DNA of 64,000 nt, from positions 372,001 through 436,000 of the forward strand of contig NZ_JAPMLQ010000003.1 in the NCBI RefSeq assembly GCF_026410305.1, given 5' to 3'. A model generated the notes under the pieces. That model saw nothing but the letters and a program-made list of their open reading frames with translations, was not told the origin of the DNA and searched no databases. Below are positions 55,372 through 58,430 of this stretch, piece by piece (position 1 is the stretch's first letter; every line of letters begins with the position of its first letter). The DNA is from Sulfitobacter sp. F26204 (GTDB taxonomy: Bacteria; Pseudomonadota; Alphaproteobacteria; Rhodobacterales; Rhodobacteraceae). The position numbers and the translations under genes were made by a program.

Positions 55372-56784
55372 CTATAGACTGCGCAACGCCGGGCGTCGCC
55401 ATTTGGCCGCCGGTTCAATCATCAACTCGTGCAAGGCCCAAACCAATGCGTCTACACGATCTGGGGACCCGCTGCCTTCATATCCATGCGCCGTCATTCG
55501 ACACATTTGATCCTCCAGCGCATCCAGCCCCCTTACATGGCCCACGCGCCCCTGTTCATACAAAGCTGCCACAGGCTCTGCTCGTGCCACCTTGCCCCTG
55601 GAGGCATGTACTGACTTCAACGGCACCAGCGGATCAATCTGGCGCAGGACCTCTCCTACCATTGCGCCGCCCTGATTGACCTCGGCGACCAACTTATCGG
55701 CCCCATATCGCACCATCGCCGCAATCGCCGCTTTCGCCCATCCCGAAGGGGTCGCGCCTTGGATCGAACAATCTGCCAGAACAACTGCCCGCCACTCTTG
55801 TACCGGCCCCCGAGCGATCGCTCCAACAACGACAATTCCGCATTCGTCCGCTTCGATACCGGCCGAGGTCGCAGGATCCAGACCAACAACAATTCGGTCA
55901 AACTCGGGTGGATGCTCTACCCGTTGCGCTTCCAATGACGCAGAGGTCCACAAAGCCCCTTCTGCATCCGCCAGCAAAACCCCATCCAGCTCCTGCCGGC
56001 CCAGGCGCGTGCCTTTGTAACGCGCTCTCACTTCTTCCATAAACGACTTGGCCAGGTTAGCAGCGTTCGCTTCCGTCGGCGCATGGGTCTGCACCGTCGA
56101 AGGCGAAGCCATCAACCGCCTTAACACCGAAACATTGCGCGGCGTTGTCGTGACACATACACGCGGATCCTCGCCCAGGCGCAGCGCGAACTGCAACTGG
56201 TCCCAAACTTCCTGCCCTCGTTTCCATTTCGCCAACTCGTCTACCCAGGCTGCGTCGAACTGCGGTCCGCGCAGCCCTTCGGGATCGTAGGCGGTATGGA
56301 CCGTCGCAATTGCACCATTCGGCCAGACCAACCGCTTTCGCCCGGCTTCCCACACAGGGCGGCGATCCTCGGGCGAACAGGCCAATATCCCGCTGTCGCC
56401 AAAGATCATGACTTCACGTACTTGATCAATAGTTTCGCCAACCAGCGCCACACGGCGGCAACGACCCTGATCCAGTGGCTTGGCCCCCTCGACCATCGAA
56501 CGCACCCATTCCGCGCCTGCACGTGTTTTTCCGGCACCACGTCCCCCCAAGACCACCCAGGTCCGCCAGGCTCCCTCTGGCGGCAACTGGTGATCCATCG
56601 CCCAGAACTCAAAGAGGTAAGGAAGCGCCAGTAGTTCTTCCTCTTCCAACTCATTCAGAAACTGCTCTTGGACATCCGCATCGGCGGAGGCGATCCAGCT
56701 TGCACCCGATCTCAACCCTTGCTCGGTCAAGATCGAGGGCGTATCCGCCCTTTGCGATTCCAGCTTGTTTACCTCGACATTCAT
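55372..56784 (-). CDS. GTA g2: large terminase (packaging motor)
   Basis: 470 residues. ATPase half: Walker A GGRGAGKT (80-87), Walker B AAWVDE (178-183), coupling motif VTTTPR (211-216). Nuclease half (about 290-450) with acidic residues Asp303 (VGLDPATS), Glu368 and Asp442/Asp445 (PDRVDALVW). Packages cell DNA head-full by head-full in GTA. Its start lies 134 bases inside g1; GGAG sits 10 bases before the ATG. Confidence 0.95.
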   Translation of the reverse strand: MNVEVNKLESQRADTPSILTEQGLRSGASWIASADADVQEQFLNELEEEELLALPYLFEFWAMDHQLPPEGAWRTWVVLGGRGAGKTRAGAEWVRSMVEGAKPLDQGRCRRVALVGETIDQVREVMIFGDSGILACSPEDRRPVWEAGRKRLVWPNGAIATVHTAYDPEGLRGPQFDAAWVDELAKWKRGQEVWDQLQFALRLGEDPRVCVTTTPRNVSVLRRLMASPSTVQTHAPTEANAANLAKSFMEEVRARYKGTRLGRQELDGVLLADAEGALWTSASLEAQRVEHPPEFDRIVVGLDPATSAGIEADECGIVVVGAIARGPVQEWRAVVLADCSIQGATPSGWAKAAIAAMVRYGADKLVAEVNQGGAMVGEVLRQIDPLVPLKSVHASRGKVARAEPVAALYEQGRVGHVRGLDALEDQMCRMTAHGYEGSGSPDRVDALVWALHELMIEPAAKWRRPALRSL

Positions 56785-56995
56785 TTAATAAAATCTCCGC
56801 TTTGGCGCATTGCAACACAAGGTCCTTAACCTTGTTCAAAGATTGCTTTGCCGCCGTTTCATCCAAAGTGCCTTCGACTCGCGCTGCGCGCGTCAGCTCC
56901 TCGATCTCGCGTCTTAGATCGGTGATCGAATTAAATAACGTGGTCAGAATTTCGCTTCCCCACGCAATATCGTCATCTTCGCTACAAGTAGTCAT
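56651..56995 (-). CDS. GTA g1: small terminase
   Basis: 114 residues. Helical, with a middle coiled coil (about 20-70, ILTTLFNSITDLRREIEEL) and a Cys-containing tail. In RcGTA this protein serves as TerS without the site-specific DNA-binding domain of phages, in line with random packaging; no helix-turn-helix is seen here. ATG follows GGGAGAGAGA. The gene begins 43 bases past a terminator-like hairpin and about 100 bases past a strong promoter. Confidence 0.85.
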   Translation of the reverse strand: MTTCSEDDDIAWGSEILTTLFNSITDLRREIEELTRAARVEGTLDETAAKQSLNKVKDLVLQCAKAEILLNECRGKQAGIAKGGYALDLDRARVEIGCKLDRLRRCGCPRAVSE

Positions 56996-57037: not shown

Positions 57038-57073
57038 AAAAAAAGCGGCCCTCGGAATCCCTCCCGAGGCCGC
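57038..57073 (-). terminator. Intrinsic terminator between the GTA promoter and g1
   Basis: On the minus strand AGCGGCCTCGG and CCGAGGGCCGCT form an 11-bp stem with one bulged base and a loop of about 8 bases, followed directly by TTTTTTT. Loop and stem are strong and the T tract is unbroken. It may end the fab-mltG transcript, and it also lies 20 bases after the promoter at 57101-57129, before g1. Confidence 0.85.
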
Positions 57074-57100
57074 TTGCCCACGTCTTCTAGCATGTCAAAA

Positions 57101-57129
57101 TCTATAGATCACATCGTCCGCAATGTCAA
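57101..57129 (-). promoter_or_regulatory. Sigma-70-like promoter facing the GTA cluster
   Basis: Minus-strand TTGACA (57124-57129), exactly 17 bases, then TATAGA (57101-57106). This is close to consensus for the housekeeping sigma factor, stronger than most in the window. The expected start site is near 57094. The terminator at 57038-57073 follows at once. Confidence 0.65.
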
Positions 57130-57242
57130 TGAAAAGAGGGTTACCAAACCCCTGTAAGACCGTGCGATCATTGGTTAATTTTTCATTACAGCGCTCTAGG
57201 AACAATGAGAGGACCAGGGGTGCTGCTGATCATTCCACTCGC

Positions 57243-58430
57243 TCAGTCTCCACCACCGGTGGAGGCGTTTCCTGCTGCTGCTGCACCACGCTCTGCTTCT
57301 ATCTGACGCCAGGCAGCAACATTGGCATTATGCTCTGCAAGAGTTTCCGCAAAGGCATGGCCACCGGTACCATCGGCCACGAAAAAGATATAATTGCTTT
57401 GGTCAGGCTGTGCCGCCGCCATTAGGCTTGCACGGCCCGGATTGGCGATTGGTGTTGGCGGTAATCCATTGATAACATAGGTATTCCATGGCGTTTCCGC
57501 ACGCAGTTCGGACCGACGCAATCCACGGCCCAATACGCCTTCGCCTTTGGTGATGCCATAGATCACTGTCGGATCGGTCTGTAACCGCATACCCTGGTTC
57601 AGACGGTTCACAAAAACGCTGGCGACTTGCCGGCGCTCCTCTGCCACACCCGTTTCCTTTTCGATGATTGAAGCCAGCGTCAGCAACTCTTCCGGGTTTT
57701 CGATGGGCAGATCGGGATCGCGCGCGTCCCATGCCTCGGCAAGCCGCTCTTGCTGTGCCTGTGCCATCCGCGCCACAACCGCCGCGCGGTCATCACCGGG
57801 TCGAACTTCATAGCTGTCCGGGGCAAGTGACCCTTCCGGCGGCACATCGCCCGCGCTTCCCTCAAGCACATCCATCGAAGCCATCGCATTGATGATTTGC
57901 CAACTGGTTACACCCTCGGCCAGGGCAATCCGAAACCGCGTGTCTGCCTGTGCCTTCATCTGTACATAAATTTCGGGAACAGCATCCTCTCCCGGTACGA
58001 ACTCAGCCTTTTCGACAAAACGGCTGGTGGCGGGGTCCAATTCGCGCACCTGTACCGAAACGCGATTGATCCCGATCCGGTAAACCACTTCTGTACCACA
58101 GGTACTGGCACCGCCCTTGGTGATGGTCTCTACGATCTCAGACATCGAGGTGCCTGGCTCCACCAGAAAACTGCCGGCTTTCAAGGCCGCAGTCTTATCC
58201 TCATAATCGGCCCCCATGCGAAAGATCGCAGCCGATCTGACAGCGCCTTCCGCGGCCAGATCCCTGGATACCCGGCGCATGGTCGACCCCGGTTTGACCT
58301 GCACACATATTGCCTGCTCAAGCGGTCCTTGGGCGGTATATTGCGACTGTCCCCAGATGATAACGCCGCCCAGCAGGAACAGCGCCACAACCAGGAAAGT
58401 CACGGCGTTCGAGGCAATATGCCGCCACAT
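57243..58430 (-). CDS. mltG: Endolytic transglycosylase MltG
   Basis: 395 residues. Inner-membrane lytic transglycosylase that cuts nascent glycan strands. One N-terminal span (about 8-28, VTFLVVALFLLGGVIIWG), then a LysM-like part and the YceG domain. Catalytic Glu in LTLASIIEKETG (about 258-269), followed by FVNRLNQGMRLQTDPTVIYGI and NTYVINGLPPTPIANPG. Start 3 bases after the fabF stop, so part of the fab transcript. The C-terminus ends in a Gly-rich run. Confidence 0.95.
   Translation of the reverse strand: MWRHIASNAVTFLVVALFLLGGVIIWGQSQYTAQGPLEQAICVQVKPGSTMRRVSRDLAAEGAVRSAAIFRMGADYEDKTAALKAGSFLVEPGTSMSEIVETITKGGASTCGTEVVYRIGINRVSVQVRELDPATSRFVEKAEFVPGEDAVPEIYVQMKAQADTRFRIALAEGVTSWQIINAMASMDVLEGSAGDVPPEGSLAPDSYEVRPGDDRAAVVARMAQAQQERLAEAWDARDPDLPIENPEELLTLASIIEKETGVAEERRQVASVFVNRLNQGMRLQTDPTVIYGITKGEGVLGRGLRRSELRAETPWNTYVINGLPPTPIANPGRASLMAAAQPDQSNYIFFVADGTGGHAFAETLAEHNANVAAWRQIEAERGAAAAGNASTGGGD

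Follow-up and report, generated by a model that had tools for sequence, protein, structure and literature searches.

A conserved promoter–terminator unit ahead of the GTA cluster in Rhodobacteraceae: a candidate antitermination-controlled late promoter

The GTA cluster of Sulfitobacter sp. F26204 is preceded by a σ70-type promoter and, directly downstream of it, a predicted intrinsic terminator; judged by sequence comparison within the family (Rhodobacteraceae), the two are one conserved unit. Its anatomy is conserved, its stem covaries, its presence is tied to GTA, and the genome carries a gafA-type gene. We consider it probable that the unit is an antitermination-controlled late promoter which is opened by GafA and serves as the main switch of the GTA cluster. 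The stretch of DNA that was analysed (64,000 nucleotides, hereafter the window) is part of a genome of 4.24 Mb.

Promoter and terminator in the window

The features of the window are collected in Table 1. Direct reading of the sequence confirmed the preliminary description of a TTGACA-17-TATAGA promoter followed by a hairpin and seven T before g1; the 11-bp stem given there was slightly off, the stem having 14 pairs (A-U pairs with the T tract counted) and one single-base bulge. Transcription would be expected to start near 57094 on the minus strand, with +1 set seven bases after the −10 element. No −10-like sequence was seen by eye in the 42 bases from the T tract to the g1 ATG, and g1 itself matched no Pfam family at E 0.001.

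Table 1. Features of the promoter–terminator unit and neighbouring genes, in window positions.
Feature	Position	Strand	Basis
mltG (YceG-like), upstream gene, outside the promoter–terminator unit	57243..58430	(-)	
−35 element, TTGACA	57124..57129	(-)	direct reading of sequence
Candidate factor-binding motif between −35 and −10, GCGGACGATG	57112..57121	(-)	alignment A1 and column counts
−10 element, TATAGA, spacer 17 bases	57101..57106	(-)	direct reading of sequence
−10-like element, TGA-CATGCT, about −3 to +6, candidate sigma-dependent pause element	57089..57097	(-)	column counts
Conserved initial transcribed block, AGAAGACGTGGGC	57076..57088	(-)	column counts
Predicted intrinsic terminator, hairpin with one-base 3′-arm bulge and T7 (GC hairpin within 57075-57045; seven T at 57044-57038)	57038..57075	(-)	fold, covariation
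g1, ATG at 56995	56651..56995	(-)	
terL, GTA large terminase, 470 aa	55372..56784	(-)	Pfam Terminase_6N/6C

The combination TTGACA-N16-18-TATA occurs once in the 64 kb, where 0.03 would be expected. In generic scans of 10 kb, neither promoters (3 found, 4.7 expected) nor terminators (4 found, 10.0 expected) were in excess of shuffled sequence; the promoter scan is blind to the TATAGA promoter because it demands T at the last −10 position, a base described as absent from most alphaproteobacterial σ70 promoters (PMC8407463). The 57-nt leader folds at −25.7 kcal/mol (z −2.95), and 2 of 200 shuffles did equally well. Hairpins with a T run at or below −20 kcal/mol numbered 0 in 300 shuffles of the intergenic stretch and 2 in five shuffles of 20.3 kb, and the leader terminator is the strongest among the hairpin-plus-T sites listed for both strands of the window.

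Column counts over 76 family units delimit the conserved elements in and after the promoter. Each base of TTGAC is kept in 74–76 of the 76 units, counts that are partly so by construction, the model sequences having been picked for TTGA[CT]. Between −35 and −10 lies a motif of family consensus GCGnACGgTC, at about −26 to −18 (G at −25 in 74/76, C at −22 in 76/76, G at −21 in 69/76, and T at −19 in 62/76), which is a candidate antiterminator-binding element. The −10 element keeps T at −12 (75/76) and A at −11 (76/76), with T at −7 in only 7/76. Next comes a −10-like element of family form TGnCAwGCT, with TG at −3/−2 and CAwGCT at +1 to +6, the layout of an extended −10; A at +2 and T at +6 are kept in 75 and 76 of the 76 family units and in 68 and 69 of 70 named units, respectively, and the gap that separates it from the −10 element is one base shorter in 27/76. 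With +1 placed as above, it would be a candidate σ-dependent pause element. The spacer motif and the −10-like element are additions to the preliminary description, and both suit a promoter under antitermination control. The initial transcribed block that follows has the family form rGAAGAagTGGGC, with TG at about +15/+16 (G+8 in 75/76, A+12 in 73/76, T+15 in 70/76, and G+16 in 67/76). T at +15 and G at +16 would suit a pause at that point, by analogy with lambda.

Two further stretches were observed around the unit. A loose motif, CCGnACGGTTAGC, at window positions 57159-57166 resembles the spacer motif and turns up in some loci about 38 or 27 bases ahead of −35, at an interval of 11 bases; the search for upstream motifs returned two motifs mixed, a TTAA type among them. 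Between the T tract and g1, many relatives (e.g., L003) share by eye a conserved CTCGTGCGGAG, of which the window version is GCTCGGTCGGGG, near the likely ribosome-binding site.

Conservation of the unit and its link to GTA

A terL match was present in 136 of the 149 genomes sampled from the family, and 110 loci (30 + 80 by region) were taken from these 136. Two of them (L064 and L096) matched none of the three query proteins and so were skipped in the hairpin scan, which left 108 oriented loci. Within the interval scanned, an accepted GC hairpin with a T tract was found in 84/108, at a nearly constant distance to terL; some of these 84 are hairpins other than the unit (e.g., L030, L067, L082, L089, and L090), and most are directly preceded by TTGACt-nn-GCGnACGgTC-nnnn-GTATAnnTT-nTG-n-CAwGCTrGAAGAagTGGGC. 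The TTGA[CT] anchor was present in 74 of the 84 hairpin loci, of which 73 entered alignment A1; L087, where the T tract had been placed one run too far, was left out. From these 73 sequences a covariance model of promoter plus hairpin (R2) was built.

The preliminary description had named conservation of the hairpin in GTA-bearing relatives as a test of its proposal, and the hairpin survived. At 30 bits or more, R2 matched at full length in 86 of the 110 family loci (76 of L001-L100 and 10 of L101-L110), a count that is not independent because the model was built from 73 of those loci; it found the unit in both skipped loci. It also matched at that score in 70 of the best 80 named relatives, which may overlap the model loci in species and do not include R. 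capsulatus; one of the 80 (L260) starts inside terL, where no unit is possible. The nearest of the best 80 by TerL are Sulfitobacter with 86 per cent identity, and very near records are possibly omitted. In its own genome the window unit was the one strong match (85.7 bits), with three others at 16–21 bits. Promoter and hairpin keep a nearly fixed spacing across the family units.

A more independent view of conservation than these counts comes from viral contigs, which were scanned with TTGAC plus CAwGCTrGAAGA only, the terminator being excluded from the pattern. At least 120 stretches matched, and of the 80 that were checked for genes, 45 carried a GTA terL (one of these calls, L200, rests on a short match); the same 45 were exactly those matched by R2, hairpin included. 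The other 40 stretches comprised 15 sources with the unit by R2.

The hairpin is conserved in more than its position. All 13 stem pairs of the family show changes on both sides, 84.6 per cent of stem cells pair (73.5 in shuffles and 39.6–62.5 when slid), and the covariation score is 0.354 (0.182 shuffled, 0.072–0.198 slid); by these comparisons the stem is under selection as a stem. It is also characteristically imperfect. Of 67 unit hairpins in the named loci, 49 carry one unpaired base in the 3′ arm and 3 are perfect; among 68 other hairpins from these loci, those of the best 80 relatives, 46 are perfect and 7 have that bulge. This contrast is conservative because the comparison set includes at least one unit (L258, a short locus). 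Among all 84 accepted hairpins, 75 have a stem defect (46 of them the 3′ bulge) and 9 are perfect.

Presence of the unit follows terL. Among 148 family genomes, it was matched at 30 bits or more in 100 of the 135 with terL versus 3 of the 13 without. The first (G141, L124) has fabF, mltG, and the unit; terL was not found in its genome, nor were the queried GTA proteins in the 8-kb locus. By eye, the next gene resembles the last gene of the window GTA cluster and the flanking genes beyond it are the same, so the GTA cluster seems to have been deleted between g1 and the last gene and the unit left behind (L124 2300-3000). In the second (G095, L125), an unrelated gene comes after the unit, whose T tract is decayed by eye. 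These two look like relics. The contig of the third (G108, L126) continues for about 510 bases beyond the unit and stops in g1 or shortly after it, and its terL may simply be cut off by the contig end.

The 35 terL-bearing genomes without a unit at 30 bits include four with a weak unit in place (G004, G080, G129, and G145), and 33 of the 35 still have a match to DUF6456 (see below), so the switch is not obligatory. The units of L030 and L014, among others, look decayed by eye, and some family terL matches are short or broken; other genomes that lack the unit may use another arrangement. Two further family genomes without the full unit came from a sample of the class (L335, partial at 23 bits, and L336, none). 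In that sample of 289 genomes, R2 gave six matches at E 1e-4, two of them in the window's own genus (itself included); only one of the other four, L120 (G201, another family, 800-2200), precedes a terL in its locus, and by eye it shows a TTGACA, a −10-like element, and a hairpin arranged as in the family. As far as this sampling of sequences goes, the unit as modelled is thus essentially a family trait. In a scan of 27 loci from other families, six (L341, L342, L349, L352, L354, and L358) have a hairpin with a T tract about 310–540 bases before terL, some preceded by TTGAC or TGTGACACGCTGAGAG, and the remaining loci have none nearer than 800 bases; leader terminators may thus be wider among GTA-like loci. 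In L120, an apparent small-terminase gene lies before terL (by eye), and a 194-aa protein, P0001, is encoded just upstream, in the position that Q holds in lambda. P0001 was considered as a GafZ relative and rejected, with no DUF6456 in Pfam and none above cut-off in the L120 genome; it gave only weak matches, to PHROG families that have no assigned function.

Two observations concern terL itself. A second hairpin with a T run lies inside terL of relatives (e.g., L257 at about 2635-2670, codons ~46-57) and is weak in the window terL, near 56640. The site folds at or below −16 kcal/mol in 45 of the 71 named relatives that have it, 44 of the 45 with a run of at least three T, compared with 108 among 2718 control windows within terL; the stem is kept while the residues that it encodes vary (EGEL, EGGL, or EGAL before ALP). 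This hairpin may be a further terminator within the coding sequence. In eight family genomes (G043, G070, G079, G092, G104, G137, G140, and G144), the TerL match stops at about residue 185 in a frame of 827–878 aa, which points to an insertion, for example an intein, in these GTA terminases; the match stops at the same place in frames of 418 aa (G055, of the window's genus), 609 aa (G139), and 246 aa (G030).

Proposed antitermination by GafA and alternative readings

We infer the firing of the promoter, the pausing and termination of polymerase, and the part of GafA as loading factor as follows. The near-consensus σ70 promoter would fire without an activator; polymerase would pause early at the −10-like element and then halt at the hairpin terminator about 50 bases in, so that only an RNA of about 56 bases would be made. 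Once GafA is made, its GafZ-like C-terminal part would bind the motif between −35 and −10, and GafA would load onto the paused polymerase and render it termination-resistant; the modified polymerase would then proceed into g1, terL, and the rest of the cluster.

A protein with DUF6456, which we take to be the GafA/GafZ domain, is encoded in the same genome outside the window. Matches to DUF6456 were found in 136/148 family genomes and, among 14 control genomes, in Caulobacter alone. Phage proteins related to GafA (H1-H5) were noted in RDJL Phi 1, RDJL Phi 2, and a freshwater phage record (MW462191); a scan of the viral contigs for gafA found none. In R. capsulatus, GafA is described as binding 76–125 bases upstream of g1 (PMC6363796), which in the window corresponds, if the geometry is the same, to 57071-57120, a span that starts at the spacer motif and reaches the foot of the hairpin.

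The published view in R. capsulatus is that GafA recruits polymerase via omega (Sherlock and Fogg, PMC9638019). If GafA were a classical activator of this kind, the hairpin would only shield GTA from stray transcription and would be passed by sheer rate, a reading that agrees with the published GafA–omega interaction (PMC9638019) and with the binding of GafA to a promoter fragment that holds the −10 and the start site (PMC6363796). We regard it as unlikely: with a −35 close to consensus, an activator is not obviously needed, and the Caulobacter GTA promoter, once given a near-consensus −35, worked whether or not GafYZ was present, if about sixfold more weakly (PMC11150451); an insulator should lie ahead of the promoter and not some 20 bases past the start; and the reading does not account for the −10-like element. 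GafA may act at both recruitment and antitermination. The word “terminator” is absent from the main texts of both GafA papers (PMC6363796, PMC9638019), figures and supplements aside, as is “antitermination” from the main text of PMC9638019, and the literature searched, with most subscription papers outside its scope, contained no report of a leader terminator in a Rhodobacterales GTA.

Conservation of the leader RNA and of its bulged hairpin would also suit an attenuator or a small RNA, with GTA regulated by the terminated RNA itself or by a non-GafA signal that acts on the leader RNA; a weak Rfam match to the sRNA RcsR1 was found as well (21.1 bits, gathering threshold 60) and was taken as chance. 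Much of the conserved sequence is promoter DNA upstream of the start, however, and no alternative (antiterminator) fold was found, a result that weighs little since RNAalifold on the MAFFT alignment A1 returned no structure at all and missed the terminator stem too, because stem arms of different length were misaligned. (The consensus structure was subsequently set from column pairings.) This reading we hold to be very improbable.

The preliminary description had also allowed that the hairpin merely ends the fab-mltG transcript, the adjoining promoter then being there by chance. mltG is the upstream gene in most loci, and the only other hairpin from the mltG stop to the promoter in the window is weak (−6.7 kcal/mol). 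Against this, 19/86 units have no mltG match in the upstream stretch of about 1.1 kb (among them that of L031, a locus which starts with the unit); in the viral contig L176, 4.3 kb separate the end of mltG (1719) from the unit (6018), which lies beside terL (6367); and in at least six loci (L007, L017, L021, L027, L055, and L058) a further terminator is predicted no more than about 80 bases past the mltG match, a count that omits L060 and L068, where this is the unit itself, and L045 and L103, where it is weak. The hairpin is therefore not simply the mltG terminator; in the window it may also end the mltG transcript. A hairpin that follows mltG with or without GTA was not the pattern found, and with the nearly fixed promoter–hairpin spacing and the lack of a unit in 10 of the 13 terL-less genomes (two of the other three being relic-like), this explanation fits badly and is very improbable in our judgement.

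Antitermination at the leader can be extended to a wider reading, to which we give an even chance. In most of the Rhodobacteraceae GTA lineage, a constitutive promoter would be held shut by a leader terminator; GafA would be a processive antiterminator of the Q/AlpA kind, loaded at a σ-dependent pause, and not primarily a recruiter of polymerase; the bulged stem would be tuned; and the putative terL-internal terminator of many relatives would be a further gate, open to modified polymerase only. In the best-studied GTAs, GafA binds at the promoter and touches omega; the step that it controls may be passage of the pause element and the leader terminator. Selection would then have maintained a phage late-gene switch in a domesticated phage throughout much of a mostly marine family.

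Comparison with known systems

GafA is homologous to GafY plus GafZ (PMC9632790). Caulobacter GafZ is reported to bind between −35 and −10, to associate with polymerase and Nus factors, and to let polymerase past the terminator after gtaT and past a foreign one (PMC11150451). The Caulobacter crescentus GTA promoter (GafY, GafZ, IHF) differs from the present unit in several respects: its −35 is degenerate, whereas the window has TTGACA and nearly all units TTGAC (selected for TTGA[CT]); its GafZ site is nearly palindromic and its start codon lies at +251, whereas by eye no GafZ-type palindrome was seen in the window spacer TTGCGGACGATGTGATC or in the family consensus; and its known terminator comes after gtaT, whereas here the terminator lies in the leader. 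Upstream of −35, where the GafY and IHF sites of Caulobacter-type promoters lie, only loose motifs were found. RcGTA of R. capsulatus is the same cluster, with a GafA-binding fragment at a matching distance from g1 (PMC6363796).

AlpA requires a −10-like element together with its binding site, GGGACG (−25 to −20), which N5-GGTA follows; the terminators begin 54 or 26 bases downstream of the start (PMC9371919, PMC7969949). In the GTA spacer motif, ACG is one base off the ACG of AlpA, and the target genes of AlpA are unrelated to GTA. We know of no homology between AlpA and GafA, and the sites may resemble each other through convergence or by chance.

The Q protein of phage 21 depends on a −10-like sequence among the first transcribed bases and on a Q-binding element (QBE) between −35 and −10, and PR′-tR′ of lambda and phage 21 resembles the GTA unit in having a binding element in the spacer, a −10-like pause element, and a terminator before the late genes (PMC6606751). 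Of the elements that mark promoters of the Q/AlpA type, the unit has the σ70 −35 and −10 (from sequence), a −10-like sequence in the putative initial transcribed region (from sequence, for the presumed +1), and a predicted intrinsic terminator between the expected start and the first gene (from sequence and fold). The conserved motif between −35 and −10 is a candidate for the binding element. The unit differs from the Q systems in that GTA is a domesticated element, that its factor, if GafA, has no similarity to Q on record (as stated for GafZ in PMC11150451), and that the gafA-type gene is found at another place on the chromosome instead of directly ahead of the promoter. Given the parallels with Q, AlpA, and GafZ, the homology of GafA, and the DUF6456 protein of this genome, the unit is most simply read as a leader-terminated promoter that GafA would open, and GafA would then join Q and AlpA as factors that act on one promoter anatomy.
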